The notes under the pieces: model-generated
Told to the model about the DNA's origin: nothing
Databases searched by the model: none
Seen by the model: only the letters and a program-made list of their open reading frames with translations
From: Armatimonadota bacterium
GTDB lineage: Bacteria; Armatimonadota; DTGP01; JAKQQT01
Direction: 5' to 3'
Assembly: GCA_029564025.1 (NCBI GenBank)
Contig: JAKQQT010000212.1
Span: forward strand, 1-35,011
Length of the DNA stretch: 35,011 nt
Position numbers and translations under genes: made by a program
Shown: one piece after another, positions 1-18,821 of the stretch
How positions within the stretch are numbered: position 1 is the stretch's first letter
Layout of the letters: each line of letters starts with the position of its first letter

Positions 1-1845
1 GTAGCCCTTGTCCTGGATGGCGGCAATCGTCGGCGTGGCGCTGGGAAGGCCCAGCCGGCTCGCGCCGGGCAACGGTTGCGCCCCGCCGGAAGGCTGGGTG
101 CCGTCCGGGAACTGCCACAACGTTTTCAATGTGACGGGGTCGATTTCCGCAACCGCGCCGATGCCCTGGGTGGTCGCGTCCTGCGTCTTGCTTCGCTTGC
201 CGACCACGAACAACCGCCCGGAGTAATACACAGGAGCAGGGATACGGAAAGCGGCATCCTCATTCGGTACGTAACCATTCGCAATGCGGCCTTTCAACCA
301 CTGCGGGTATGCCGCGAAGCCGTCGATATCCACCGATTTGGCGGTCGAGGAAACGTTTGAAGACAACCGCCCGCCGTTCCTCGGAAGCGCCGAGAGCGAG
401 AGGATTCTGGCCTTGTTGCCGCCGTTAACCGTCAGGAACAGGCGCGTTTCTCCGGACACGTCTCCCACCACAACCGACGAGCACGGCCCCGGCAGGTTGT
501 AAACCCACAGCACGTCACTGCTCGGGTGATCCGGGTTCGGCAGTCCGTCGTCGGGATTGCTGTCACCGTCGATGTCGCGGCCCGGGTCCATATCAAACGC
601 GTAGAGTTTGCCGTCGGAACCGGCGACAAACGCGACGCCGTTCCACACCGCCGGTTCGGAAACGAAGTGAACACCCGCGAAACTGAAGCCGCCGGGTTCG
701 TTGACGAAGTTCTCGGGGAATTGCCACTTGCGGCCGAGCGGGGTGTTCATGTCCTGCCGCGTTCCCGAAGCGTGGCGCGGACCGCCGCCCGGTTGCGGGT
801 TCTGGAACTTGTACGCAATCAGGTTCACCAGGAATTTCAATTCCGGCGTCTGCACAAGGCGGGCGTCACTGCCGCTCACGGGGCCCGTGTTGCCGCCCCG
901 GTACATCGCCCCGTCCACTCCCGCGACCGGCCGGAAACCTTCGCTCAGCGCGCGCCCGACGCCCCGCGACGTTATCACGATGCCGCCCTGGCCGTACGGT
1001 GTGACGGCGATGAGCGTGCCGCGTGTGTTCACGGCAACCTGCCTCCAGGACGCGACGAAACTGCCCGGCGAGGGATTGCGCGGGCTTCCGTCGATCGGGA
1101 CGCCTGCGGGAACCTCAAAATAGGTATCCGGCGGCGTGCCGAGCGACCGGATTTCCCGTGCCGAGAGGGTATTCGGCGTGCTCAACAGCGCTTCCAGCGG
1201 ATCGCCTACGCGCGGAGCAGAGCCGCCCACGCGGAATGTCGGCTGTACGAAAAGCTTGCGCCCCAAGTCGTCACCGGGCGTATAGGCACTGCTGTTGGGA
1301 TTGTCGATCCAAAGCAGAACGCCCCCATCCACCGCGCGCCGCAATTTTTCGCGGTCCTCGATGGTCAGAGCGCTTGCGCCGGCACCGTCGTTCAACGGCA
1401 GGGGCATATAAAGTACATCGTAGTTCGCCAACTGGTCGGCGGTGGCTTCCTTGAGAAACACTTCCCAGTACGCGCCCATGTTCTTGTTCAGGCGCGGCGG
1501 ATTGGCGACGTTGAACTGCGTGGCCGTAAGCCCCCAGCGTTTTGCCGACGAACTGTCCATGTACGGCGGCGCGTTCGGATTCACGATTTCCCAGGCGTAC
1601 GGACGGATATCCGGGCGGGCATTCAGGGCGTGAAACACGTAGGAGAACGTGTGGTTCATGTCCAGCGCCTGAGTGGTTACCGGCTGGGCATTGGCCCAGG
1701 CACTGCGATTCGCCAACAGGACGCCACAGCGTATCGTCTCGGTGCGCGTGTTGTATGTGCTTGCCTCGGAGCGGGCCGAAGGGGTCACTGCCTGAATTGC
1801 CAGTGCCGTGACGGCGGCCATCCGAAACCATTTATTTGCTCTCAT
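1..1845 (-). CDS. Exported protein, N-terminal Rossmann/GATase-like region plus C-terminal PQQ/PilY1-like beta-propeller with DxDxDxNxD loop; C-terminus beyond window edge
   Basis: Hand translation from ATG at 1845 (MRANKWFRMAAVTALAIQAVTPSARSEAS...) stays open to base 1. Contains ...LTIEDREKLRRAVDGGVLLWIDNPN... and ...VWNGVAFVAGSDGKLYAFDMDPGRDIDGDSNPDDGLPNP... Absent from the ORF track because it is edge-truncated. Last gene of the pilus operon. Confidence 0.85.
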   Translation of the reverse strand, partial: MRANKWFRMAAVTALAIQAVTPSARSEASTYNTRTETIRCGVLLANRSAWANAQPVTTQALDMNHTFSYVFHALNARPDIRPYAWEIVNPNAPPYMDSSSAKRWGLTATQFNVANPPRLNKNMGAYWEVFLKEATADQLANYDVLYMPLPLNDGAGASALTIEDREKLRRAVDGGVLLWIDNPNSSAYTPGDDLGRKLFVQPTFRVGGSAPRVGDPLEALLSTPNTLSAREIRSLGTPPDTYFEVPAGVPIDGSPRNPSPGSFVASWRQVAVNTRGTLIAVTPYGQGGIVITSRGVGRALSEGFRPVAGVDGAMYRGGNTGPVSGSDARLVQTPELKFLVNLIAYKFQNPQPGGGPRHASGTRQDMNTPLGRKWQFPENFVNEPGGFSFAGVHFVSEPAVWNGVAFVAGSDGKLYAFDMDPGRDIDGDSNPDDGLPNPDHPSSDVLWVYNLPGPCSSVVVGDVSGETRLFLTVNGGNKARILSLSALPRNGGRLSSNVSSTAKSVDIDGFAAYPQWLKGRIANGYVPNEDAAFRIPAPVYYSGRLFVVGKRSKTQDATTQGIGAVAEIDPVTLKTLWQFPDGTQPSGGAQPLPGASRLGLPSATPTIAAIQDKGY

Positions 1846-1928
1846 TGTTGGCTTCTCTCGCGTGTTCCCGAATCTTTTTGTGGCGGCGAGGAAGGCATTC
1901 CGCCTCCCCGGATCACCGGCGCGGACGC

Positions 1929-4793
1929 TCAGGACGCCTCGCCGAAGAAGATCAGGTCCGGACTGACCGGAAGGGCCGGCATCGGCGGTAACGGACGATT
2001 GTACCTGTCTCGCCGAATCGGCAGGCGCAAGTTGTGGTCGTACGTATACACGAGGCCTTCGCCGCCGTGCGGGCTGTTCGAGCCGTCCGGACGGACCTTC
2101 GGGGTCCATCCCCAATGCTTCGCCCAGGCCGTCTGGTATTCCTTCGACGCCGGCATGTTTTCGGTTACGGCGCCGTTGATTACGACGCGGATGTCCGGCG
2201 GTTCCTGATGGAACGGATACGATGACCTGCCGTTTGCCAGGTCCTGCAGGCGCCATCCGGCCTGCATCGGATTCTGATATCGCAGTGAATTGTTCAGATT
2301 GTCGCCGCGCAGATCCATCTTGTTTCCGTTGGCCCACTCGCCCGGAATCACGAAGAATGAACCTTCCTGGGCGTACAGCACGGCTTCGATGCGCACGTCC
2401 ATCGGCGATACGATGGTCCGGCTGATCCAGATCGGTTGCGCGTAATTCTGCGCGAACTGCGTCCCGGGGCTGGAATTGTCGTACTGGGACGGCCCGAAAA
2501 ACGGGCGATACGTCAGCACAAACCAGTCCGGCGCGGCTGTCCCAAGCGCGGACCACGATGTCTGATATCCGTTGTGCAGGGTCGGCGACAGCGGAATCGC
2601 GTGGTGTTGCCACACGTTTTCAGCCGGTGACAGCGAACTCATTCCCGGCGACACAAGCATCGGGACGGGACTCCCGCCCTGGCGGTAGATACTGCCCCAG
2701 CTGAACAGGTTTCCGCCGCCGTACCACTGCATCGTCACGTCCGCCGCTCCGCCGGGGAAACTCTCGGCGGTCTGCAGGAAGTGCAGGCACTGCCGCGCGC
2801 CGCGGGAATCTTCCGGGTAGCGGGCGGGATCGACCGCGCTGTATCCGGACGTCACATAGGTCTGCCCCGCGCTTCCGAGTTCGGTGAACGGATTGCCGAT
2901 GGCATACGACCAGCCTGCCGCGTCCGGTTGTTTCATAAAGTAGGCCGTGCTGTTGACACACACATAATCCTTCGCCAGGATTGCGATGGAGCCCATCTGC
3001 AGGCCCGAACTGCCGGAACCTCCGACGGCGTCTCCCTTGAGCAGGTTGCCCTCGATATAGGCAGTGCCGTTCGTGATAATTGTCAGATGCGCGCCGACGG
3101 GTTGCCCCGAGGATCCTTGCCAGTCGGCCGGCAACTTGCCCTGGATGCGAACGTTGCCCTCGAAGTACATCACGCCGTTCTGGAACGTCTTGTAGGCGCC
3201 GGTGCGGTCGCGGAACTGGTCGCCGCCGTCGTAGGTTTCGCTGTCCCGTTTCTGGCCGGTGTTATCGTACACGGCGCGAAGCGGATAGCGGTATCTGCGG
3301 CTGAAACCTTCGTCCCGACCATTCTCATCGCGCCACTGCCGGCCATCATGTCGCGTAATGATGATGGTACCCTGGCTCTGCCCGTTGGGAAAAGCCGAGT
3401 TCAGCAACTTGCCGGGCGATGGATCAAGATACACTTCCGCTCCGGGCGGCGTGTACAAATGCTGTCGCCAAGCGCTTTGCGGATCGGCTTCTGAACCGCG
3501 GCCCGTGCCGGTCCGCGCCCATTCGTCCGTCAATTTGCGGAACACCGTGTCGCGCTGAATTTCGTTGCCGTTATCGACATAAATGCCCTGCCCCAGTCCG
3601 TACTGGCCGATATTGTAGTTCTTGCCTTTCGGGATGTAACCCGAATTGCGGGTCAGCAGGCGGTAGCGAAGGATACCGGTAGCCGGGTCAGTCTGGTCGA
3701 CATTGGGGGGTTCCACGCGAGTTACGCCGCGCACGCGGCCCGTGGCGCTTCCGGCCGCGGAACCGTCGCGATAAGTTCCTGTTGCCGTGTCAAAGTTCGG
3801 ATTTTCGTTGCCGTTCGGCAGAATCGACGGCTCGCAATCGACGGTTTTGGTTACGGCATCGGGGCTCGCGTTGATCAGGCGAATTTGGTCGTTCGACGAA
3901 ATCCCGTCCGGCAGGCCGTCGTGGAAAATCCGTCCGGCCACTTCCACGGCGTCATCGCGGACGATTCCGGTCGTCTGGAGCGTCGGGCTGTAGAAATTGC
4001 CGACATCGCCGCCGTAGTTTTCCATCCCGTTCAGGTTGATGGTATTCAGTCCGGACCACATCAGGTCGCCGTTTACGCGAATCGGACCGTTCCAGTACGT
4101 GCGGAACGGTTTGCCGTCTTCCAATGGAAACGGTGTGGCGCCCAGCACGATGGTATTGGACGACCGGTCTTTGTTCGTCACGAAGCGCACGTAATCGGTG
4201 ATGCCGATGGGCTTGTAGGCCACCAGCATGCGTCGCAGGGGGTCCTTGCTTCGCCAGGTGGTCGGATCGTTGGAGTCCACCACGCCCCGGCGCCCGATGG
4301 CCTCGATCTTGATGTAGCGTCCCAGCGCGGGATAGCCCATGCGGGTTACATCGTCGGTCGGATTGCCGTTCACGTCCACCGGTTCGCCGTTGTCGTTCAC
4401 CACCACGGGTTGATAAGAAACGCGCAGAAGGAAACGCCCGTTGCCCTGATTGAAGCGGGTATAGCCGGCCTTCAGAAACGCATAGTCGGGATCCTCAGGA
4501 TTCGGATTCAGGTGGGGTTCCGGTCGCCAGTCCGCACCCTCGGCGCTGTTGGTCAGCAGGGAATCCGCGTAGCGGATACCCGCTTCGGCCAGATACTGCG
4601 CTTGGGTGACATCGGAGCCTCGTCCCGCGCGGTTCAGGTTGCGCGAGATGAGCACCAGAAAGATGCTCGCGATGAACGCGAGCAGGAAGAGAATGGCGAT
4701 AGCCGCAACTATGACCTGGCCCCGCTGGCCGGCTCTGTTTGGGTTCGTGCGCATGATTCCTCGCCGAGGCTTCCGGGATAATGTCTTCGGCAT
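1929..4793 (-). CDS. PilX-like (PilX N-terminal type) very large pilus assembly protein, 954 aa; alternative start at 4754 (MRTNPNRAGQRGQV)
   Basis: RGQVIVAAIAILFLLAFIASIFLVLISRNLNRAGRGSDVTQAQYLAEAGIRYADSLL: hydrophobic N-terminus with AEAGI motif typical of PilX-type proteins; operon context. Confidence 0.8.
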   Translation of the reverse strand: MPKTLSRKPRRGIMRTNPNRAGQRGQVIVAAIAILFLLAFIASIFLVLISRNLNRAGRGSDVTQAQYLAEAGIRYADSLLTNSAEGADWRPEPHLNPNPEDPDYAFLKAGYTRFNQGNGRFLLRVSYQPVVVNDNGEPVDVNGNPTDDVTRMGYPALGRYIKIEAIGRRGVVDSNDPTTWRSKDPLRRMLVAYKPIGITDYVRFVTNKDRSSNTIVLGATPFPLEDGKPFRTYWNGPIRVNGDLMWSGLNTINLNGMENYGGDVGNFYSPTLQTTGIVRDDAVEVAGRIFHDGLPDGISSNDQIRLINASPDAVTKTVDCEPSILPNGNENPNFDTATGTYRDGSAAGSATGRVRGVTRVEPPNVDQTDPATGILRYRLLTRNSGYIPKGKNYNIGQYGLGQGIYVDNGNEIQRDTVFRKLTDEWARTGTGRGSEADPQSAWRQHLYTPPGAEVYLDPSPGKLLNSAFPNGQSQGTIIITRHDGRQWRDENGRDEGFSRRYRYPLRAVYDNTGQKRDSETYDGGDQFRDRTGAYKTFQNGVMYFEGNVRIQGKLPADWQGSSGQPVGAHLTIITNGTAYIEGNLLKGDAVGGSGSSGLQMGSIAILAKDYVCVNSTAYFMKQPDAAGWSYAIGNPFTELGSAGQTYVTSGYSAVDPARYPEDSRGARQCLHFLQTAESFPGGAADVTMQWYGGGNLFSWGSIYRQGGSPVPMLVSPGMSSLSPAENVWQHHAIPLSPTLHNGYQTSWSALGTAAPDWFVLTYRPFFGPSQYDNSSPGTQFAQNYAQPIWISRTIVSPMDVRIEAVLYAQEGSFFVIPGEWANGNKMDLRGDNLNNSLRYQNPMQAGWRLQDLANGRSSYPFHQEPPDIRVVINGAVTENMPASKEYQTAWAKHWGWTPKVRPDGSNSPHGGEGLVYTYDHNLRLPIRRDRYNRPLPPMPALPVSPDLIFFGEAS

Positions 4794-4808
4794 GGGTATG
4801 ACAAATTC

Positions 4809-6530
4809 CTAGCGTTGTATGTTCCGAAGGCGAACGCGGTTGGACACCGTGGCCGTCAGGGCGGACCGGTCATTCGGATCATATTCGCGCGCTGTGATGG
4901 TAACGCTGATCAGCGTGCGGGTCTGGTAATCCACCTTCACCATATCCGTCGGATTGTTGTTCTGATAGAAACTGGAGATGCGAACCTTGTGCCCTTGCGG
5001 TATCGGCGCGGGCTGGACCGGGTTCTGTTCGCTCGGATACGGATAGCCGATGATGATCTCGTTGTATTCCGTCAGAATGTAGGTCCGGGGTGCCGGCAAT
5101 TGCGCGGGCTGACCGTTCTGCCCGGCCAGTTCCACCGGGGTTTCGTACACATCTCTTGTGTCGGACCGGCTGTAGGTCACCCACCGGCGGTTGTTTCCGT
5201 CGTTCTCCTCCACCTGCACCACTTCACTGCCCGGCGAGATATACGCTCCCGGCGGCAGGGCGGCTCCCATCGCTTCCAATGGACGGAACATGGCCGTCAC
5301 CCCGTCGCCGGTTGCCTCGAAGTCCTTCGCGGGCATGGAGAACTCGACCGTGCCCTTCTGCGAGTTCCACGCCAGCACGCGGTTCTTTTTGGCCGGGTCC
5401 GACGCATGTCCGCTTTCCGCGGCCGTGTCGAAAACGGGTGTCAGGCGGATAGCCTCGTCATCGTCTTCCGTGCGTTCATACACCACGATGCGCGGCAACA
5501 TATTCCTTGGCGGCTGAGGTTTGTACCCGTGATATGGAACCGTGCCGTCGTTCTGAAGGCCGGTCCAGTGCCCGTGCTGTGTCTTGAAGGTTTGCGGATA
5601 CTGACCGCCGCCCACGGGATTGGCCGTATCGGAGGCCATCACCAGCGGGGCGAACGACACGAGGCACCGGGCCTGCGTGTAGACCGAGTTCTGATCCTTC
5701 GGATTAGTGCGGACAAAATCCACCAGGTCGGTCGCCGACGACGGCATCACCGCGACGGCTTTTTTTCGCCACCAGTAGGCATAGGAATGGCCGTCCACCT
5801 GGGCCGGATCGTAGAAGAAGTCCGGATTCAGGCGCCAGACCTCGCGTCCGTCCGGCGACGACTCGCCGGGGGCGGGAATGGCCCAGTTCGCAAAATGCGG
5901 GTCGTACGGATTGAACTCCACGCGGTACAGCGTGTAAAGATTCTCCCTGCCGCGCGGCCTGGTGATGATATTGTTCTGCCACGATGGGTAACCGTTCCGG
6001 ATGTCGTCCGGCCGGCTGAGGCCGACAAAGTAGCGGACGATGATCGGGTGCTGGCTTCCGTTTATGGTGACGTGTTCGTACGCGAGCGGTTGCTGGATGC
6101 CGCCGCCCTCCAGGCCGAGGGTGTCGTGCGGCAGTATGATGTCGATCGACGCGCCGGAGACAATCCACGGATCGTGGCCGTTGTCCACGTTGCCCCGGTT
6201 GTCCCACACGCCCAGGTATCCGGAACCGCGCACCGCCACGGTGTCACCCTTGCCGGGTTCTCCGCCCGTGTAGTACAGGAACGGGAAGTAATCGCCCTGG
6301 TTGACAACAACGTGCATCGCATCGCCCAGTTCCCGTGTCACGAGTTCCGAGGCGTAGCGGGCGGCGTCCTGCACTTCCACCGTGCGCCGGGCGCGGGTGG
6401 TGATGTTGAAGGTGCCGATAAGCGGAGTAAAGATGAGCGTCATCAGGATGGCCAGGATGGCGAGCACCACCAGCATCTCGATGAGGCTGAATCCGCGTCC
6501 GGTTCTTTGTTGTTGTCGTGTCAATTGCAT
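4809..6530 (-). CDS. PilW/PulJ-like minor pseudopilin with large C-terminal domain
   Basis: Class III prepilin motif G|FSLIEMLVVLAILAILMTLIFTPL after the short leader MQLTRQQQRTGRG. ATG at 6530 fits better than the ORF-track start 6656, which overlaps the upstream gene. Confidence 0.82.
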   Translation of the reverse strand: MQLTRQQQRTGRGFSLIEMLVVLAILAILMTLIFTPLIGTFNITTRARRTVEVQDAARYASELVTRELGDAMHVVVNQGDYFPFLYYTGGEPGKGDTVAVRGSGYLGVWDNRGNVDNGHDPWIVSGASIDIILPHDTLGLEGGGIQQPLAYEHVTINGSQHPIIVRYFVGLSRPDDIRNGYPSWQNNIITRPRGRENLYTLYRVEFNPYDPHFANWAIPAPGESSPDGREVWRLNPDFFYDPAQVDGHSYAYWWRKKAVAVMPSSATDLVDFVRTNPKDQNSVYTQARCLVSFAPLVMASDTANPVGGGQYPQTFKTQHGHWTGLQNDGTVPYHGYKPQPPRNMLPRIVVYERTEDDDEAIRLTPVFDTAAESGHASDPAKKNRVLAWNSQKGTVEFSMPAKDFEATGDGVTAMFRPLEAMGAALPPGAYISPGSEVVQVEENDGNNRRWVTYSRSDTRDVYETPVELAGQNGQPAQLPAPRTYILTEYNEIIIGYPYPSEQNPVQPAPIPQGHKVRISSFYQNNNPTDMVKVDYQTRTLISVTITAREYDPNDRSALTATVSNRVRLRNIQR

Positions 6531-6535
6531 GGCTT

Positions 6536-8446
6536 TTACTGGCGCTTCAGCGTCGTTTCCAGGGTTCGCATTTCCCATCGTTGCGGCTTCTCGCGCCATA
6601 TGGCGCGCACCTTGATGCTTGCGCCCTGTACGAACGTGAAATACGGATTCTTCCATACTTCGTCATCGCCCGGGTAGGTGTACTCGTCCGATCGCGCGAA
6701 TGGCACGTCAATGGACGGATGACCGGCGCCCAACTGGCCGAACTTCGGCAACTGGAACTGCCGGCCGTTGATCGTGTGCGTTGCTCCGTCGTTGTCGGTC
6801 CAGTTCAGGGACACCTCAATCGATTTGCCCGCATCACTGCGCGGGAAAGTCAGGGTCGCCACCCAGTCGCCGCCCTTTTTCTGGATGCGCGCGTCAAACT
6901 GGTTGTACTGAAGATTCTCGAACGAATTTCCCGGCACGTCGCGACGCTGATAATTGGACCAGGCTTTCGATGTCTGCACCGCCCAGTCGTCCACGGCCTG
7001 ATAGAAAATCCTTACGTCGTGGCCGCGCACATCCTGGTTCGTCAATGTGCCGCCGAACGGCGTGTACTTGGTGATGGAACCCGGGAACCGGACGATGCCG
7101 GCGGCGTAGTCAACCTGCAGGCCGCCGGGGCCGTTGTTATCCACCATCAGCGTGTTGTCGGTCAAGTCGAGCGCCACAACGCTGTACCCGTCCATAGCCG
7201 GAGTGATGCCCTTGTACTTCTTTCTAACATTGCGCGTTCCGGGAGGCGCGTTCACCGTCTCGATCCCGTCCACGGTGGTCACCCTCGCTATCTTCACGTT
7301 CGGCAGGGTCAGGCGAACCGAATAGTTAGGCGCAACGTTGGCCGGCGCGGGAATGGTGCGCTCCTCGCGCAGTACGTGCCAGTCCAGCACTTCGTAGTCG
7401 ATGTGAGCCGTCAGCGGGCGCTGGCCCAGGCTGGTTCGGACTACCACATTGCGACCAATCGGATTGAAACCGATGGTCGGCGCGAAGTCGAGTTGCGCGT
7501 AACCGTTCAGCAGGGTGAACTGGTACGGATTGCGGTCATCGAAGTTGCCGGGTTGCACGTACTGGAACTTGCGCGCCAGGCGGTCCGAGTAATCATCGAT
7601 GTTACCGTGCTCCAGTTGCAGTTCCACAATTTCACCGCGGTCGGATTGTCCGGGCACGATAAGAATCTCGGTCGAATTGCCGAGTTTGTTGTTTTCCCAG
7701 TAGGCGTAATCGATCTTGTACCGCCGCGTCCACCATGTGCTGTACAGGTACACCTTGCCCGAATCGTAATCGATGGCGTAATTGTTCCGGTTGACGCTCG
7801 CCAGGGTGTTGTCCCGATCGTCCGAGGACAGGCCGGTCACGTTCACGCGTGTCAGGGGATCCCCGTAAATCAGCACGTGCTGGTCCGGCCACTCGAATCC
7901 CTGCGGAAGATTCTGCCCCTTGTCGCTCTCCGAAAACTGCACCGGCGCGAACTTGAGGTTGTAGATCGAATACGCGTAGTTTTTCTGGTCACCCTCAGCG
8001 TAAGGCAACAGTGTGGGCGCGGGAATCACGGTGGTTTCGCCCTTGACCAGGCGCACTCGGTTCACGTTCGACCAGTACCACGAATCCTGCCCTTCCGGCA
8101 TTTCGGCTGGGTTGGCGCTGTTCGCGGTGCGCATATCGTCCGGATTGAAGTCGGTTCGCACTTTCAGCGCGGTTCCGGGATCCTCGGCGAGGATTCCGTC
8201 CGGCACGTTGGCGGACGCGGCCTTCCAGCGCTCCAATTCGGCCTGGGCCAGCCGCGATGCGGCGGTCATATTGCGGGCATGATTCAGACTCTGAAGACCG
8301 AGCGGAAAGATGCGGACGATACCGAAGATGCCGATGACGAGGATCACCGTCACCACCAGCAATTCGACGAGTGTCAGCGCCCGTGTGGAACGCCTGCTTG
8401 CGGCGGTCGATACGGTTGTTGATTGCCTCTTCACGTTTGGTGTCAT
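6536..8446 (-). CDS. PilV-like minor pseudopilin with large C-terminal domain
   Basis: RALTLVELLVVTVILVIGIFGIVRIFPLGLQSLNHARNMTAASRLAQAELERW. Start at 8446 forms an ATGA overlap with the upstream stop. Confidence 0.82.
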   Translation of the reverse strand: MTPNVKRQSTTVSTAASRRSTRALTLVELLVVTVILVIGIFGIVRIFPLGLQSLNHARNMTAASRLAQAELERWKAASANVPDGILAEDPGTALKVRTDFNPDDMRTANSANPAEMPEGQDSWYWSNVNRVRLVKGETTVIPAPTLLPYAEGDQKNYAYSIYNLKFAPVQFSESDKGQNLPQGFEWPDQHVLIYGDPLTRVNVTGLSSDDRDNTLASVNRNNYAIDYDSGKVYLYSTWWTRRYKIDYAYWENNKLGNSTEILIVPGQSDRGEIVELQLEHGNIDDYSDRLARKFQYVQPGNFDDRNPYQFTLLNGYAQLDFAPTIGFNPIGRNVVVRTSLGQRPLTAHIDYEVLDWHVLREERTIPAPANVAPNYSVRLTLPNVKIARVTTVDGIETVNAPPGTRNVRKKYKGITPAMDGYSVVALDLTDNTLMVDNNGPGGLQVDYAAGIVRFPGSITKYTPFGGTLTNQDVRGHDVRIFYQAVDDWAVQTSKAWSNYQRRDVPGNSFENLQYNQFDARIQKKGGDWVATLTFPRSDAGKSIEVSLNWTDNDGATHTINGRQFQLPKFGQLGAGHPSIDVPFARSDEYTYPGDDEVWKNPYFTFVQGASIKVRAIWREKPQRWEMRTLETTLKRQ

Positions 8447-9351
8447 TGTGACCACGTCTGCCATCCTGCCCAGCCGGCGGCGTCGTAACGGCCGGTTATG
8501 TTGCTTTCGCGATTCTCCACGTGACCGTCCACAAAAAGTACCGGGTCCCGACTGCTGGACGGATACGGCGTTCCCGGATTCCAGCCGTTGGGATACTTGC
8601 GGTGATAGGTGCAAATCGTTACCACCGTTTCATCGTCCGGTTGACGGAAGATCAACTGGCGCGCATAAACCTCGCGGCGCTGTTTCGGCGTCATACCCGA
8701 AACCCAATGATTCCGGTCCGCCGGATCCTGGTCGGGATTGCTGAGGTCGGACAGCGGAAGCCACTGCCGGGAATAATGCCGTTCCCACATACCGGAACCG
8801 GGGCCGAACGGGCGCGTGGGCAGGAAACTGAGGTCGTATGAGTCGCCCACGGCGTAACGCACGCCGTTCGGGTACTTCAACTTGCCCATTCCGTCGGAAA
8901 GTGTCCACGGAGTCTCGCCGACTTCCGGCACGGGCATTGTATCCCACGTCAGGGCATTCGATGGTTCCCAGTTCGAGCCGTTTTGCTTCAACAGGGTAAT
9001 GGCCGCGCGTTCCGACAGTTTGCTGAGCGCCGGATTGTTGGGGCAAACGAATGCCTCCTGGCGGCGCACCCACAGGGGGTACAGGCCGTATACAGCGGCT
9101 GATCGGTTCGGCAGGTCCGCTTCGTTCACAAAACCATAGAGGACGATTGGGTAACCGCCTTCATCCAGCCGGTACACCTTCAGCGCCGCGCCGATCTCGT
9201 TGAGGTTGGAGATGCAGGCGCCCCTGCGGGCATTCTGCTGGGTAGCCGTGACGACCGGGAAAATCAGGCTCATCAGGACGCTCATGATGGCAATCACCAC
9301 CAGCATCTCGATCAGGCTGAAACCGCCGTTATGTTTGCGTTGGTTATTCAC
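8443..9351 (-). CDS. Type IV pilin/pseudopilin (DUF1559-like, H-x-DG-like C-terminus)
   Basis: GGFSLIEMLVVIAIMSVLMSLIFPVVTATQQNARRGACISNLNEIGAALKVY ... CTYHR ... FVDGHVENR; GTG start. Confidence 0.85.
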   Translation of the reverse strand: MNNQRKHNGGFSLIEMLVVIAIMSVLMSLIFPVVTATQQNARRGACISNLNEIGAALKVYRLDEGGYPIVLYGFVNEADLPNRSAAVYGLYPLWVRRQEAFVCPNNPALSKLSERAAITLLKQNGSNWEPSNALTWDTMPVPEVGETPWTLSDGMGKLKYPNGVRYAVGDSYDLSFLPTRPFGPGSGMWERHYSRQWLPLSDLSNPDQDPADRNHWVSGMTPKQRREVYARQLIFRQPDDETVVTICTYHRKYPNGWNPGTPYPSSSRDPVLFVDGHVENRESNITGRYDAAGWAGWQTWSQ

Positions 9352-10141
9352 GAGGAGTCACCGCCCAGTTGAACAATCCCGTTACTATCATCTCGCTGGA
9401 AAAGCGCTTTTCCACGTGTCCGTCCTGGAACAGAACCATGTCCTGGCTGGACCGCGCGGGCGTTCCGTTCGCTTCGTACGTACGGTGGTAGGTACACGCC
9501 GTTACGTAAGTGCTGTCCTCGGGGTTGCGGTCCAGAAGTTCGCGCCCTGTCTTGTCCGACGCTCCGTAAAGGCTGGCCCAGTCACGCCGGTAATGCAGTT
9601 CCCAACGCGAGGGATCGGTGTCCTGTTTCGGCGGTACAAAGCCTCCGTCGTACGAATCGAACACGAAATAGTGAATCCGTCTCCCGGTCACCGGAACCAG
9701 TTCATACCCGCCGCCCTTGAGCGGAGATTTGCGTAACGGACCTGCCGACTGCGGTTCCCTGCTGTCCGGATCGAAGATGCGCGTGGCCGCTTCGGTGTCG
9801 GCGGTCTTGCGGTTGTTGGGACACTTGAATTCGCGCTTGGCTCGCACGTAATGCGGGTAAAGAAATGTTGTCGGCTCCAGTTCACCGTCCTGGTTTTTGT
9901 TGCCTTCCTCCTGGTAGCCGTAAAGGGCGGGAGGATACTCGCGCTCGTCCATGCGGTACAGGCGCAGGGCCTGACCGATGCTTTGGAGATTGCTGAGGCA
10001 GGACATCTGGTTGCCCTTCTGTCGGCTGGACTGGGCAACGGGGAAGGTGAGGCCCGCGACCACCGCGATGATGGCAATGACCACCAGAAGTTCCAGCAGT
10101 GTGAATGCCATGTGTCGGGGGTGTATAGGTGTGTCTCTCAC
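9344..10141 (-). CDS. Type IV pilin/pseudopilin, paralog of the preceding gene; alternative ATG start at 10111
   Basis: AFTLLELLVVIAIIAVVAGLTFPVAQSSRQKGNQMSCLSNLQSIGQALRLYRMDE ... CTYHR ... FQDGHVEKR. Confidence 0.85.
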   Translation of the reverse strand: MRDTPIHPRHMAFTLLELLVVIAIIAVVAGLTFPVAQSSRQKGNQMSCLSNLQSIGQALRLYRMDEREYPPALYGYQEEGNKNQDGELEPTTFLYPHYVRAKREFKCPNNRKTADTEAATRIFDPDSREPQSAGPLRKSPLKGGGYELVPVTGRRIHYFVFDSYDGGFVPPKQDTDPSRWELHYRRDWASLYGASDKTGRELLDRNPEDSTYVTACTYHRTYEANGTPARSSQDMVLFQDGHVEKRFSSEMIVTGLFNWAVTPRE

Positions 10142-10271: not shown

Positions 10272-11138
10272 TCAACCTCCCGCCAGCAGGTTCAGATACC
10301 ATCGAATCACGTCTCCACCCACAAAGACGGAAACGGAGAATCCGATGATCAACGCGGGTCCGAACGGGATGGCATGGCCTTCAAGCCGTTTCATCGCCTT
10401 CAGGGCAAGCCCGAAAACGGCGCCGATGAACACGCCTGTCAGCAATGCCACCAGGCCGCCCGCAATGCCCAGGTTCGCGCCCATCACGGCGGCCAGCTTC
10501 ACATCGCCCATTCCCATGGCATCCAGCCGTTCGCCTTCTTCCAGGATGCCCTCGTTCGCCCACTGCGATTCCTGCTCCGCAATCTGTCTGCGGAACATCA
10601 CGTTCCCCAGTAGAATCATCAGATACAACAACCCGGGCAGAACCGCCGCGCCGGCCAGGGCGCCCAGAACCGTCACCGGTTGCACCCCCGGCTCCGACAG
10701 CCAACGGGTGCTGAAGGCGTCCGGGCCGGCCACCGCCCGAGCAAAGCCGATGATCAACCCGGCGGCATTCAGCGAGTCCGGAATGATGTACTGATCGACG
10801 TCCGTGAAAAACGCGGCAATCAGGCACGCGAAAAGGACGCACAGCAAGCCTGCGTCCACCGTGGCCCCGAACCGGTAATAAACCAGCGCGAACACGGCGC
10901 CGGTCAACGCTTCCACGCCAAAATACCGCCACGATACAGGCGCGCAGCAGTACCGGCACTTGTGGCCGAGCCACAAGTAGGACAGCAGGGGAACCAGGTC
11001 CATCGGTTCCAGCCGGTGGCCGCAGGCAGGGCAATGCGAGGGCGGCGCCACAACCGAAATGCCCTTCGGCAACCGGTAGATAAGCACATTCACAAAACTG
11101 CCGACCACCGTGCCGAATATAAAAGCGATGAAAGCCAT
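10272..11138 (-). CDS. pilD: Prepilin peptidase / leader peptidase (PilD family)
   Basis: CPACGH...CRYC zinc motif, TDVDQYIIPD and GMGDVKLAAVMGA aspartyl protease motifs. Confidence 0.95.
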   Translation of the reverse strand: MAFIAFIFGTVVGSFVNVLIYRLPKGISVVAPPSHCPACGHRLEPMDLVPLLSYLWLGHKCRYCCAPVSWRYFGVEALTGAVFALVYYRFGATVDAGLLCVLFACLIAAFFTDVDQYIIPDSLNAAGLIIGFARAVAGPDAFSTRWLSEPGVQPVTVLGALAGAAVLPGLLYLMILLGNVMFRRQIAEQESQWANEGILEEGERLDAMGMGDVKLAAVMGANLGIAGGLVALLTGVFIGAVFGLALKAMKRLEGHAIPFGPALIIGFSVSVFVGGDVIRWYLNLLAGG

Positions 11139-11269
11139 TTCAGGATTCAGGATTCAGGATATGGGATTCAGGCGAATGGGCAACGCCGCAACAGCCCTTC
11201 TAGTCGTGTTTCAGGTTTCCGCTTCCGGCCCTGAATCCTGAATCCCGAATTCTGAATCCTTCTGAATCA
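11139..11269. repeat. Inverted pair of TTCAGGA/TCCTGAA heptamer arrays filling the pilC-pilD gap
   Basis: TTCAGGATTCAGGATTCAGGATATGGGATTCAGG (11139-11172) and CTGAATCCTGAATCCCGAATTCTGAATCCTTCTGAATCA (11231-11269). Confidence 0.9.
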
Positions 11270-12574
11270 CTCTCCCCCGCCGGTATCCGTGCCGCCGCCG
11301 GACAGGCCCGAGATGATGGCCGTCATCGGCATCATGGTCGCGATGACGATGAAGCCAACCGATCCGCCCAGGAACACGATCAGCAACGGTTCGATGGCCG
11401 ACGTGAGGCTTTCAATCGCCGAGTCCACTTCGTCCTCGTAGAACTCCGCCACCTTCGTCAGCATCGAGTCCAGCGCGCCGGATTCCTCGCCGATGGAAAT
11501 CATCTGAACAACCATGGGCGGAAACATTTTGGAGCGTTGCAGGGGGTCGCCGATACGGTCGCCTTCTCGGATACTGGCCCGGGCGTCCATGATGGCATCG
11601 CTGATGATGGCGTTATCAACTGTGCCCGCCACCGTTTCCATCGCCTGCAGGATGGGAACACCGCTTACCAGCAACGTCGCCAGGGTACGCGCAAAACGCG
11701 AAAGCGCAATCTTGTGGTTCAAGCTTCCGAGCACGGGCGCCTTCAACTTCAGCCGGTCGGCAAACCGACGCCCGAACCGGGTGCGCGTAAAGGCTTTCCA
11801 CGCTGAGAATGCGGCAAACAGAATAATACCGATGATGATGTGGCGCATCGGGAAGCCGTTCCGCAGAAACGCGGAGACGTCCATCATAAACACCGTCATC
11901 GCCGGCATGGTGTCGCGGCCCAATCCCAACTGGGTGAACGTGTCAAAAAAGCTCGGAAGGATGAAGGTCGTCAATCCAAGCACTGCGGTGATGGACAGGA
12001 TGATGACGATGACAGGATACGTCATCGCGCCTTTTACCTTCCGCCGCAGTTCCAGGTCCTTTTCAAGGAAGGAGCTTAATCTCTGCAGGGATTCCTCAAG
12101 AACGCCACCGACCTCGCCGGCCTTGATGAGACCGATGAACAACTGGTTGAAGATCTTGGGGTACTTCGCCATCGCCCGGCTGAGCGTGTTACCGGACTCG
12201 ACTTCCACCTGGATGTCCGACAGGATATTGCGGAAACGCGGATTCGGGCTCTGCTCCTGAAGAACCGCGAGGCACCGAACCAGGGACACGCCGGCGTCGA
12301 TCATCGTGGAGAACTGCCGGCAGAAGACCGTCAGTTCGGCAACCTTGATGCCGCCTCCGAACGAGAAGGTCTTTTTCTCCTTCGGTTTTGTGACCACTGC
12401 CTTGGCGGCGGCCTTTTTCGCTCCGCCTTCCTTGCCCCTCGTGCGTCGAAGAGACTGAACGAAGTATCCTTGTTCCCTCAATCGGGACTGGGCCAGGGCT
12501 TCGGTGTCGGCCTCGATGGTCCCGTTCTGTGTCGCGCCGTTGGCGTCTCGTGCGGTGTAAGTGTAGGTGGCCAT
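11267..12574 (-). CDS. pilC: Type II/IV secretion inner-membrane platform protein PilC/GspF
   Basis: MATYTYTARDANGATQNGTIEADTEALAQSRLREQGYFV; FCRQFSTMIDAGVSLVRCL; SIGEESGALDSMLTKVAEFYEDEVD. Confidence 0.95.
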   Translation of the reverse strand: MATYTYTARDANGATQNGTIEADTEALAQSRLREQGYFVQSLRRTRGKEGGAKKAAAKAVVTKPKEKKTFSFGGGIKVAELTVFCRQFSTMIDAGVSLVRCLAVLQEQSPNPRFRNILSDIQVEVESGNTLSRAMAKYPKIFNQLFIGLIKAGEVGGVLEESLQRLSSFLEKDLELRRKVKGAMTYPVIVIILSITAVLGLTTFILPSFFDTFTQLGLGRDTMPAMTVFMMDVSAFLRNGFPMRHIIIGIILFAAFSAWKAFTRTRFGRRFADRLKLKAPVLGSLNHKIALSRFARTLATLLVSGVPILQAMETVAGTVDNAIISDAIMDARASIREGDRIGDPLQRSKMFPPMVVQMISIGEESGALDSMLTKVAEFYEDEVDSAIESLTSAIEPLLIVFLGGSVGFIVIATMMPMTAIISGLSGGGTDTGGGE

Positions 12575-12627: not shown

Positions 12628-13812
12628 TCAGTCTTCTGATGAATCCGGCCGGCGTTCGCCCTTGTCACGGGCGGTGGAGCCGTCCAGCATGCGTTCAAAC
12701 TCGCCCGGGCTCACGGCGCGGCTGATTGCCAGGTCCCGGTCCACAATTCCTCTCAGCACGAGATCCCGGAGCGATTGGTCCATCGTCTGCATGCTGGTTT
12801 CGTAAGTCTTCTTGTCTCCACTCGTCTGGATGCTGGTCGTCAACTGGTGCGCTTTCTTGTCCCGTATCAGGTTGCGTATGGAAGTCGAAACAATCATCAC
12901 TTCCGTGGCGCACACCCGGCCGTGTCCGTCCTTGCGCGATAGCAACTGCTGGCACAGCACCGCTTCCAGGACGTTGCTCAACTGGTACCGAATCTGTTCC
13001 TGCTGGCCCGGAGGAAACACGTCCACCACCCGGTCCACGGTCTGCGCCGCACTGTTGGTGTGCAGTGTTGCCAGCACAAGGTGTCCGGTTTCCGCGCAAG
13101 TAATGGCCGTGGCGATCGTTTCCAGGTCCCGCATCTCGCCCACAAGAATCACGTCCGGGTCTTCGCGCAAGGCGGCGCGCAGGGCATTCGAGAAGGAGCG
13201 CGTATCCTGACCCAGTTCCCGCTGGTTGATGATGCTCATCTTGTGCGTGTGCAGGTACTCGATCGGGTCCTCGATCGTGATGATGTGCACACTGCGCTCA
13301 CTGTTGATCTGGTTGATCATCGCGGCCAGCGTGGTGGACTTGCCGCTTCCGGTCGGCCCGGTCACCAGAATCAAGCCCCTGGGCTTGCGGGCCATTTCCT
13401 TCAGAACGGGCGGAAGGCCGAGTTCCTCAAGGTGTGGAATCCGCGCCGGAATCAGCCTCAGCGTCGCCGCCACCGTGCCCTTGTCCCGATACACGTTCAC
13501 CCGCAACCGGGCGCGCGTTCCGAAAGCATACGAAAAGTCCAGTTCCAGCGTGCTTTCATACCGCTGAACCTGATCGGAGGTCATGATGTCGTAAATCAGG
13601 CGCTGAGCGTCCGGGGCTGATACGGGTTCGAACTCGACCAGGGGAACGAGGTCGCCGTCCACCCGCAGTGTGGGCGGAACACCGGCGGTGATATGCAGGT
13701 CGGATGCACGCATCTCGATAGCCGCGTTGAGCAGGTCGTCCATATGGACTTCCCTCAACTCCCGCGCGCCAAGATGGCTGATCGCCTCAAAATCTGTCAG
13801 AGTATCGTTCAC
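12628..13812 (-). CDS. pilT: Twitching motility / pilus retraction ATPase PilT
   Basis: Walker A VTGPTGSGKSTT, RELGQDTRSF, ALREDPDVILVGEMRD, CAETGHLVLATLHTNSAAQTVDRVVDVFP, and C-terminal SIRNLIRD (PilT AIRNLIRE-type motif). Confidence 0.95.
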   Translation of the reverse strand: MNDTLTDFEAISHLGARELREVHMDDLLNAAIEMRASDLHITAGVPPTLRVDGDLVPLVEFEPVSAPDAQRLIYDIMTSDQVQRYESTLELDFSYAFGTRARLRVNVYRDKGTVAATLRLIPARIPHLEELGLPPVLKEMARKPRGLILVTGPTGSGKSTTLAAMINQINSERSVHIITIEDPIEYLHTHKMSIINQRELGQDTRSFSNALRAALREDPDVILVGEMRDLETIATAITCAETGHLVLATLHTNSAAQTVDRVVDVFPPGQQEQIRYQLSNVLEAVLCQQLLSRKDGHGRVCATEVMIVSTSIRNLIRDKKAHQLTTSIQTSGDKKTYETSMQTMDQSLRDLVLRGIVDRDLAISRAVSPGEFERMLDGSTARDKGERRPDSSED

Positions 13813-15668: not shown

Positions 15669-16328
15669 ATGAAAATCGGCAAATGGACAGGTATCGCCCT
15701 TTTAGGCGCGGTAATTGTTCTGGCATCAACCGGCGCCGGCACGGCCGGACCGGTGAAGGGAACTCCGCCAAGGCCCGTCAACAGGATCGGCGCACCGTTG
15801 CTTCAGCCGCTCAGAAACGCTTTGGCGCAACTGAACCTCACCCAGGCCCAACAGGCGCAGATCCGCGTGTTCTTCGCGCAGGCTGAAACCGCGCTTAAAG
15901 CCATACGGGAAAACACATCGCTGACACCTGAGCAGAAACGCTCGGCCGTGCAGGAAGCCATGAAAACGCTGAAAACGAACGTCCTCGGCGTGCTGACTGC
16001 CGAACAGAAAGAACGTCTGAAGGAGATCATGACAGAACGGCGCGACGATCTGCGCGAGTTTCTGGAAACACTGAATCTGACACAGGCACAGAAACGCCAG
16101 ATTCAGGCGTTCTTCCAGGAAGCCCGCACGAAACTGGAGGCCATCCGGGCGAACCAGAAGATGACTCCCCCGGAAAAGCGCGCGGCCTCCATGCGTGTAC
16201 GACACGAACTTGAAGCGAAAATCATGCGCGTTCTGACGCCAGAGCAACGAGAGAAGTTGCGGCAGTGGCTTCAAACCCACAGGCCCCTTCAGCCGGGAAC
16301 AGCGAAACCATCGGCTTCGGACCTGTAG
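15669..16328 (+). CDS. Spy/CpxP (LTxxQ) family-like periplasmic protein with two tandem helical repeats
   Basis: Signal peptide; LNLTQAQQAQIRVFFAQAETALKAIRENTSLTPEQKR...VLTAEQKERLKEI repeated as LNLTQAQKRQIQAFFQEARTKLEAIRANQKMTPPEKR...VLTPEQREKLRQW. RBS AGAGGAGAG upstream. Confidence 0.8.
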   Translation: MKIGKWTGIALLGAVIVLASTGAGTAGPVKGTPPRPVNRIGAPLLQPLRNALAQLNLTQAQQAQIRVFFAQAETALKAIRENTSLTPEQKRSAVQEAMKTLKTNVLGVLTAEQKERLKEIMTERRDDLREFLETLNLTQAQKRQIQAFFQEARTKLEAIRANQKMTPPEKRAASMRVRHELEAKIMRVLTPEQREKLRQWLQTHRPLQPGTAKPSASDL

Positions 16329-16653: not shown

Positions 16654-16683
16654 TTGACACGACTCGTCGCGGCAGGGTAGTAT
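16654..16683 (+). promoter_or_regulatory. Sigma70-like promoter for secG
   Basis: TTGACA, 18-nt spacer, TAGTAT. Confidence 0.55.
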
Positions 16684-16738
16684 GATAAGGCGTCCGTCGC
16701 ACTCTTTGCGTCGTGCACGCATTGCTGAATCACAAACT

Positions 16739-16990
16739 ATGAATATCTTTCACATACTACTGCAAGTCGTACAATTTGCCTGTGCCATCGGTCTCATTGT
16801 GGCCGTCACGTCCCAGACGAGCAAGGAATCCGGAATGGGCGCCGCTTTCGGCGGCGGTGGTGACAACAGCGGTAACACCCGTTTCACGGGCGGCGCCGAA
16901 GAGAAGATCGAGAATCTGACGAGAAACCTGGCCTACGGTTTCGTCGTTCTCTCCCTGCTTGTCGCCATCGTGGCTTCGAAACTCAGCTGA
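16739..16990 (+). CDS. secG: Preprotein translocase subunit SecG
   Basis: MNIFHILLQVVQFACAIGLIVAVTSQTSKESGMGAAFGGG...TRNLAYGFVVLSLLVAIVASKLS: two TM segments with the SecG GMGAAFGGG loop. Confidence 0.88.
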   Translation: MNIFHILLQVVQFACAIGLIVAVTSQTSKESGMGAAFGGGGDNSGNTRFTGGAEEKIENLTRNLAYGFVVLSLLVAIVASKLS

Positions 16991-17060: not shown

Positions 17061-17145
17061 GGGGATATGGTGAAACTGGCAGACACGCTGTCTTGAGGGG
17101 GCAGTGCCGCAAGGCTTGGGAGTTCAAATCTCCCTATCCCCACCA
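17061..17145 (+). tRNA. tRNA-Leu (anticodon GAG), class II, CCA encoded
   Basis: Acceptor GGGGATA/TATCCCC; anticodon stem CTGTC/GGCAG with loop TTGAGGG; variable arm GCC-GCAA-GGC; T arm GGGAG TTCAAAT CTCCC; 3' ACCA. Confidence 0.95.
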
Positions 17146-17164: not shown

Positions 17165-18682
17165 ATGACCAACCGCAAACTCCGCCACGCATGCGCCGCT
17201 TGCGTGGCTTTCGTTGTTTTGGCAGGCACCGCCGCACTCGCGGCCAACTGGCCTCAACACCGGGGCAACTCGCCGCACACCGCGGCGATCACAGCGCCTA
17301 CCCCCAATATGCTGGTGCCGCTCTGGTCGGTTCGTTTTTACCAACAGGTCATCGATGACACCACCTACAAGCCCGGCATCACATCGTCGCCGGCGGTTGT
17401 CAACGGCGTGGTGTATATCGGTTGCCAGAACACGAAGTTCTATGCACTGGACGCATCCACCGGAAGCCAGTTGTGGGAATATCCCGCCAATTCGCCCATC
17501 GAGTCTTCGCCGATGGTTCGCGACGGAGTGGTGTATTTTGTTTCCGATAACGGAAACCTCACCGCACTGAACACCGCCAACGGCGCCGAAATCTGGAAAT
17601 TCAACAGCGGTGGCTGGCAGGACCGCGTGTCGCCCAACATTTCCGGTACGAACGTTGTGTGCGGCGCGGCCTACCCGAAAACCCACATCTATGCGGTTCC
17701 AGTCAACTCATCGGGCTCGGCTGCGGAAGCGTGGCGCGTCACCACGTCCCAATTCGTTCACTCGTCACCCGCCGTTGATCCGGCAACAGGCAATATCTTC
17801 TGCGGTTCCAACGACGGCAAGATTTACGCCATCAAGCCCGACGGAACGAATCTCTGGCCCGGACCGTTCAGCACCATCGGCGGTATCCTGCGCGCATCGC
17901 CCACCATCGCCAACGACAAGGTGTACATCAGCGGCGGTGATTACGACTGGGCCCTGCACGCCATCGACGCGGTCACCGGAACACTGGTGTGGAACGCCCC
18001 GATGGTTCCGAAGCCGGACTACCCGTCATATTACTACCGCGGCATCCAGGTGTCCAGCCCCGCCGTGGATAACGATTTTATCGCCATCATCGGCGGATAC
18101 GGCAAGAAGGATATGGGCCCCTCCACGCTGTACGCCTTCCGCGATAACGGAACCAGCGCAACCCAGTTGTGGACCCTCAGTCTGCCGAACTCCGTGGGCG
18201 TCAACTATGTGTCGTCGCCGGCTCTCACGCCTTCCTCTGTTGTGGTAGGCGTGGCTGAAAACGTCGGCTATACGCCTACTCAAGGCCATATCTACGTGGC
18301 TGACCGGGAGACCGGACAAGCGCACTGGTATCAGTCCGGTCTTCCGACACTGGTCGGCGGCCCGATTCTGTCATCGGTCGCCATCGCGGACGACCTGCTG
18401 GTCGCGGCAGACATCAACGGGCAGGTCACTGCCTACCGCCTGGCAGTTCCCGGCGATATGGATTCGGACCTGATGAACACCGTACGCGATGTGGTCGTGA
18501 TGGGCGCTTACTCTTCAGACACCGGAATCGCCAATCAGCAGACCACGGACCGGGCCGATGTGGAACCCGCCAATACGCCGCGAACGGACGGCACACGCTC
18601 GTTCGGCAACAGCCTGATCACCCCCGCGGACGCGGACCGCGTGCTGAAACGCGCACTGGGCCTGGAAACCCGCTGGCCGTAG
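17165..18682 (+). CDS. Exported PQQ/BamB-like beta-propeller protein with C-terminal degenerate dockerin-like module
   Basis: Signal peptide, ANWPQHRGN, repeated SSPAVVNGVVYIGCQNTKFYALDASTGSQLWEYP units; C-terminus GDMDSDLMNTVRDVVVMG...ITPADADRVLKRALGLE. RBS AAAGGAG. Confidence 0.85.
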   Translation: MTNRKLRHACAACVAFVVLAGTAALAANWPQHRGNSPHTAAITAPTPNMLVPLWSVRFYQQVIDDTTYKPGITSSPAVVNGVVYIGCQNTKFYALDASTGSQLWEYPANSPIESSPMVRDGVVYFVSDNGNLTALNTANGAEIWKFNSGGWQDRVSPNISGTNVVCGAAYPKTHIYAVPVNSSGSAAEAWRVTTSQFVHSSPAVDPATGNIFCGSNDGKIYAIKPDGTNLWPGPFSTIGGILRASPTIANDKVYISGGDYDWALHAIDAVTGTLVWNAPMVPKPDYPSYYYRGIQVSSPAVDNDFIAIIGGYGKKDMGPSTLYAFRDNGTSATQLWTLSLPNSVGVNYVSSPALTPSSVVVGVAENVGYTPTQGHIYVADRETGQAHWYQSGLPTLVGGPILSSVAIADDLLVAADINGQVTAYRLAVPGDMDSDLMNTVRDVVVMGAYSSDTGIANQQTTDRADVEPANTPRTDGTRSFGNSLITPADADRVLKRALGLETRWP

Positions 18683-18735: not shown

Positions 18736-18821
18736 GCAGATGTGGCGAAACGGCAGACGCGCATGCCTCAGGAGCATGTGTCCGAAAGGACGTGGAGGTT
18801 CAAATCCTCTCATCTGCACCA
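18736..18821 (+). tRNA. tRNA-Leu (anticodon CAG), CCA encoded
   Basis: Acceptor GCAGATG/CATCTGC; anticodon stem CATGC/GCATG with loop CTCAGGA; variable arm TGTCC-GAAA-GGACG; T arm GGAGG TTCAAAT CCTCT; 3' ACCA. Confidence 0.95.

Follow-up and report, generated by a model that had tools for sequence, protein, structure and literature searches.

A conserved gene run of giant minor pilins and an exported propeller protein as a candidate pilus-tip operon in Armatimonadota

The gene run at the contig end

The window analyzed here is the whole stretch of 35,011 nucleotides (nt) at the start of contig JAKQQT010000212.1 (C23) of an Armatimonadota bacterium, whose genome assembly comprises 3.87 Mb in 756 contigs. 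Its subject is a candidate pilus-tip operon, in which nine minus-strand genes, overlapping or separated by gaps of at most 130 nt, follow one another in the order PilT-PilC-PilD, two small pseudopilins, PilV-, PilW- and PilX-like proteins and an exported propeller protein. They are listed below in reading order with their lengths in amino acids (aa) and, where needed, those of the open reading frame (ORF).

12628..13812, minus strand: PilT/PilU family retraction ATPase, 394 aa, opening the run (TIGR01420 pilT_fam, E 4e-145, over cut-off)
11267..12574, minus strand: PilC inner-membrane platform protein, 435 aa (T2SSF, E 1e-65; PilC model, E 1e-123)
10272..11138, minus strand: PilD prepilin peptidase, 288 aa (A24_N_bact, E 5e-33; Peptidase_A24, E 3e-15)
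9344..10141, minus strand: small pseudopilin/pilin, 265 aa, cleavage at A/FTLLE (TIGR01710 gspG, partial, E 3e-11; SBP_bac_10/DUF1559, E 0.01)
8443..9351, minus strand: small pseudopilin/pilin, 302 aa, cleavage at G/FSLIE (N_methyl, E 1e-8; TIGR01710, partial, E 1e-12)
6536..8464, minus strand: PilV-like giant minor pilin, ORF of 642 aa, about 613 aa mature, A/LTLVE (TIGR02523 type_IV_pilV, E 3e-5)
4809..6656, minus strand: PilW-like giant minor pilin, ORF of 615 aa, about 561 aa mature, G/FSLIE (N_methyl, E 2e-7)
1929..4793, minus strand: PilX/GspK-like giant minor pilin, candidate tip pilin, ORF of 954 aa, about 929 aa mature, G/QVIVAA, lacking Glu5
1..1845, minus strand: exported propeller protein (PilY1 analogue), N-terminal 615 aa, cut by the contig end (ATG at 1845, Sec-type signal)
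544..576, minus strand: EF-hand-like calcium-loop motif DIDGDSNPDDG at residue 424, first propeller of the exported protein

The preliminary description of this DNA had located the genes correctly on the minus strand, but had confined the run to positions 1-10141, whereas PilD, PilC and PilT come before it on the same strand at the same short distances. Five of the six prepilin-type N-termini that it counted were recovered, and the sixth gene (1-1845) has a Sec-type signal instead and encodes the propeller protein. Similarly, the enlargement ascribed to all members holds for the PilV-, PilW- and PilX-like proteins, but not for the two upstream pilins of 265 and 302 aa. In the search of the genome, N_methyl was over its cut-off for the genes at 9344-10141, 8443-9351, 6536-8464 and 4809-6656, to which TIGR02532/TIGR02523 added support; 41 prepilin-motif matches were present in the whole genome. 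The true start of the PilW-like gene is likely near 6530, inside the called ORF. The pI values of the five pilins and of the propeller protein lie in the acidic range (5.5-6.3).

The break between C23 and a second contig of the same genome, C74, falls inside the propeller gene. The two contigs share an exact overlap of 141 nt (positions 1-141 of each), which completes the propeller protein to 1542 aa; downstream of it on C74 lies another exported protein, at least 1904 aa long.

Conservation across Armatimonadota

Of 151 genomes from across the phylum, 143 carried the PilX-like protein, mostly as a single copy; all 31 relatives had it, and none was found in plasmids. Its named relatives belonged nearly all to Armatimonadota or to lineages placed with the phylum (Chthonomonadaceae, Fimbriimonadales, Abditibacteriota, Zipacnadia and WS1). 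The propeller protein was identified in 117 of the 151 genomes. Gene order was compared over 98 distinct loci, with the testable cases as denominators: PilW immediately preceded PilX at 82 of 84 loci, and PilV lay upstream at 73 of 74. The propeller gene came straight after PilX at 74 of 84, often with a 4-nt overlap. Because the same gene order recurs across the phylum, the run is far beyond what chance would produce. The preliminary description had named two findings that would speak against it, a gene order not conserved in relatives and large domains without structural likeness to minor pilins or PilY1; on the first of these the result was in its favor.

Median ORF lengths were 656 aa for PilV, 698 aa for PilW, 1048 aa for PilX, 1614 aa for the propeller protein and 301 aa for the small pilins. 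The most extreme modular pilin singled out in one survey has 860 aa (PMC8179133), and PilX-like ORFs of Armatimonadota reach 1355 aa. The canonical cleavage motif with Glu5 was present in 66 of 71 PilV and 73 of 76 PilW proteins and in all 99 small pilins, the last count not being independent, as these members were partly recognized by their N-termini.

Hebobacteria, some Zipacnadia and several other lineages lack a propeller protein after PilX. In Hebobacteria and some Zipacnadia, PilM/PilN-like genes and a secretin-like gene, read by eye, come straight after PilX. At locus L146, also read by eye, the gene next to PilX is PilM-like, and small membrane proteins and a secretin-like protein lie beyond it; L098 and L065 look similar. 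The count of such absences is slightly too high, because L076, counted among them, has an exported protein of 1539 aa at this site. Some lineages lacking the propeller protein have a PilW of normal length (315-354 aa) but still a PilX of 880-1330 aa; thus, the giant PilX is the most constant part of the operon. The earlier suggestion that much of the tip could be built from pilins gains indirect support from these lineages and from the high-quality genomes, in which PilX occurs in 114 of 116 and the propeller protein in 98 of 116.

The operon is likely restricted to Armatimonadota, which is not proved, because outside the phylum one conserved motif only was scanned over the genome collection. 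Two relatives (L085 and L103) have records named as other phyla. The name of L085 is probably wrong, because L085 shares the operon, and its PilC is Armatimonadota-like (56% identity).

Identity of the pilins and of the propeller protein

The two small pilins look GspG/DUF1559-like, judging from their best matches, and no specific FimU or PilE match was found, so that their earlier designation as PilE/FimU-like was not supported. For the PilV-like proteins, the PilV model TIGR02523 was matched at E <= 1e-3 by 18 of 22 members (best 1e-8), which gives the proposed PilV identity statistical support; the window protein reached 24.6 bits against a curated cut-off of 52.2, over the first ~110 residues only. 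The N-termini of the PilW-like proteins matched Verru_Chthon cassette C (15 of 22) and HpsC (13 of 22).

In the PilX-like protein, residue +5 was I, V, L, M or A in all 63 aligned members, and Glu5 is missing. The top pilins PilX and GspK share this absence (PMC7541494). The GspK model was matched by 3 of 22 members (best E 3e-5), and no member matched the PilX_N or GspK models above cut-off, the window protein scoring 15.6 bits against a GspK cut-off of 130. Together, the position in the run, the missing Glu5 and the weak GspK matches support the assignment as a PilX-type pilin, as had been proposed. The AlphaFold2 (AF2) model of the protein was fairly confident (pLDDT 77.8, pTM 0.84) and consisted of an N-terminal helix of 57 residues, a few adjacent strands and a long, mainly beta part. 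The weak Foldseek matches of higher probability were to jelly-roll/carbohydrate-binding and MAM-type domains (probability up to 0.90, E ~0.01-0.1). Homology to these domains was not adopted, the matches being weak, and they were taken as no more than an indication of a beta-sandwich module; they would fit an adhesive or glycan-binding module and do not prove one.

The protein encoded after PilX has, as described earlier, an export signal and beta-propellers: a Sec-type signal and an N-terminal domain are followed by a PQQ/BamB-type and then an NHL-type propeller region. The N-terminal domain is weakly DUF4159-like (GATase-like; E 5e-5 in one relative). A calcium-loop-like motif of the DxDGDGNxDDG type, a putative calcium site, lies in the first propeller at a similar position in most relatives. 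These features, together with the location after PilX and the separate N-terminal domain, might be those of a true but very diverged PilY1. We consider this unlikely. The defining feature of PilY1 is a C-terminal PF05567 propeller (PMC13190605), and PF05567 (T4P_PilY1) matched neither the window protein nor four relatives; it was above cut-off in none of the 151 genomes, a result that lacks a positive control, as the control genomes gave no match either. Furthermore, an AF2 model covering the last 1182 residues of the protein from a sister genus matched multi-propeller proteins and BamB, and the propellers of BamB/PQQ and NHL type were recovered without a PilY1 structure among the matches listed. 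On this sequence evidence the protein occupies the place of PilY1 in the operon, lacks PF05567 and is not PilY1; the label "PilY1-like", taken as a statement of homology, was therefore given up for a different propeller architecture.

The position after the propeller protein is also taken by large exported proteins in relatives. Three loci have one of 2386-2780 aa (L151:9597-17939, L152:6987-15098 and L153:544-7704), in which a PQQ propeller was matched over a short stretch at most, and other lineages have Golvesin_C, NEW3 or DUF11 domains there.

A candidate priming and tip complex of a type IVa pilus

A retractable type IVa pilus is by far the likeliest machine for these pilins, because the run includes PilT and is associated with PilM and a secretin in relatives. 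The secretin was present in all 31 genomes and PilM in 30, and PilM was near PilX, on the same strand and contig, in 8 of the 31. In a sister genus of the same family (G001), the operon continues with exported proteins of 1526 and 2780 aa, PilM, three inner proteins of PilN/PilO-like size, a small STN-domain protein and the secretin. A family search did not find PilM in the fragmented genome of the window. With its order pseudopilin-PilV-PilW-PilX-propeller and its enlarged PilV, PilW and PilX, the run agrees with the pilus-tip type of operon originally recognized in it, and we put the probability that it encodes the priming and tip complex of the Armatimonadota type IVa pilus at about 0.8.

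Several results weigh against this reading. Foldseek gave nothing at E <= 1e-3 for the PilX-like model, and neither ComZ nor GspK was among the top 50 matches listed; on the second point named above, no known minor pilin was among the matches listed for the large PilX-like domain. The PilV and PilW profiles matched PDB credibly only at the N-terminal pilin helix. The large modules of the pilins are not covered by any Pfam family; the largest pilin of the window, the PilX-like protein, and its adhesin candidate, the propeller protein, match none at all. No PilW model was among the matches of the PilW-like proteins, which were general prepilin and N-terminal ones, and their assignment to PilW is based on position and on pilin signals of a general kind. 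Pfam gave no confirmation of PilN, PilO or PilP in the sister genus, and PilM is far from PilX in some complete genomes.

Two other machines were considered. The run could belong to a type II secretion-like pseudopilus, with the large pilins and propeller proteins working in a secretion piston instead of a retractable pilus. The small pilins score best with GspG and the relatives of PilX with GspK, and the missing Glu5 is as much a GspK as a PilX feature. However, the run opens with PilT, and PilM and a secretin lie downstream in relatives; type II secretion is not known to have a PilT. The PilV-like members also preferred the PilV to the GspI model (18 vs 4 of 22). We therefore regard a secretion piston as very improbable.

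Alternatively, the enlarged PilX might bind DNA at the tip of a pilus for natural transformation, in the manner of ComZ-PilA2 of Thermus. ComZ is a GspK-like pilin of 554 aa with a large inserted beta-solenoid, for which a tip location has been argued (PMC6561018), and ComEC is present in 30 of the 31 genomes. On the other hand, the failure of the PilX profile to match any PDB chain at E <= 10 and the absence of ComZ from the top 50 folds listed argue against such a role, the downstream propeller proteins resemble adhesins more than DNA receptors, and the acidity of the pilins and the propeller protein is a further, weak argument; DNA uptake thus seems improbable. As a separate observation, contig C112 of the same genome carries a ComEC-type gene (8746-9546) and two prepilin-motif proteins (107-175 and 1026-1100), a possible competence locus.

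For the type IVa pilus tip, we infer a complex with the following internal order, location and adhesive function. PilD would cleave the prepilins; the PilX-like protein, lacking Glu5, would be the outermost pilin, with the PilV- and PilW-like proteins beneath it and the small pilins lowest. If the system works as in Myxococcus and Pseudomonas (PMC7541494, PMC13190605), the minor pilins would prime assembly, stay at the tip and stop retraction. The large modules of PilV, PilW and PilX probably serve adhesion, forming a bulky tip that may touch surfaces or polysaccharides. In most lineages, the GATase-like and tandem-propeller protein would be held on PilX in the fashion of PilY1 and act as the main adhesin, to which the second exported propeller protein (1900-2800 aa) may contribute.

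The chances appear even that the tip consists mainly of the three giant modular minor pilins, PilY1 being replaced by the non-homologous GATase-like and two-propeller protein with the second giant propeller protein, and some lineages having a tip of pilins only. If so, the position of PilY1 was filled independently, and a tip complex of ~395 kDa (PilV, PilW, PilX and the propeller protein) must traverse the secretin, which raises the question of how so massive a tip leaves the cell.

Among known systems, the FimU-PilV-PilW-PilX-PilY1 complex of Pseudomonas and of Myxococcus clusters 1-3 (PMC7541494, PMC13190605) shares with the run its gene order, its types of pilin, among them a PilX without Glu5, an exported propeller protein after PilX and the type IVa pilus machine. 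It differs in that the exported protein of Armatimonadota is not a PF05567 protein and has another exported protein of 1900-2800 aa after it, and in that pilTCD and, in some genomes, also pilM and the secretin adjoin the run. In Armatimonadota, PilV, PilW and PilX have about two to five times the size of the corresponding Pseudomonas proteins. Modular type IV pilins, such as PilB and PilC of S. sanguinis and CofB, are already known and widespread and likewise carry large functional modules expected at the tip (PMC8179133), whereas Armatimonadota has three oversized pilins side by side in a single conserved operon, and their modules fall into no known family. ComZ/PilA2 of Thermus (PMC6561018) offers a GspK-like tip pilin that bears a large beta domain, beside other minor pilins; the PilX-like protein has no sequence match or listed fold match to it. 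The PilV- and PilW-like N-termini match Verru_Chthon cassette proteins B, C and D and the cyanobacterial HpsC pseudopilin (NCBIfam), but the matches of the window proteins end after the pilin N-terminus, far below the cut-offs, and there are none for PilX.

The Fimbriimonas genome paper reports only fimbriae and 79 pseudopilin genes (PMC4072686), and no description of the operon was found among the literature on Armatimonadota pili, the Verru_Chthon cassette and HpsA in the library searched. Variation among the N-termini of PilY1 proteins is already known. What is new is the combination of three oversized minor pilins in a phylum-wide operon, a non-homologous protein in the place of PilY1 and lineages lacking the propeller protein. 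A conserved pilus-tip operon of a whole phylum would have been missed by ordinary annotation. Its comparison would set the features that stay constant at the type IVa pilus tip (PilV, the pilus machine and a top pilin without Glu5) apart from a replaceable one, PilY1.

Elsewhere in the window, a plus-strand gene at 17165-18682 encodes an exported PQQ/BamB-type propeller protein of 505 aa with, by eye, a dockerin-like end, and is flanked by tRNA-Leu genes at 17061-17145 and 18736-18821. Also on the plus strand, a frame of 102 aa at 16682-16990 has hydrophobic ends and a glycine-rich middle and appears SecG-like by eye, and an exported protein of 219 aa at 15669-16328 has two similar halves with LTxxQ-type repeats, Spy/CpxP-like by eye.

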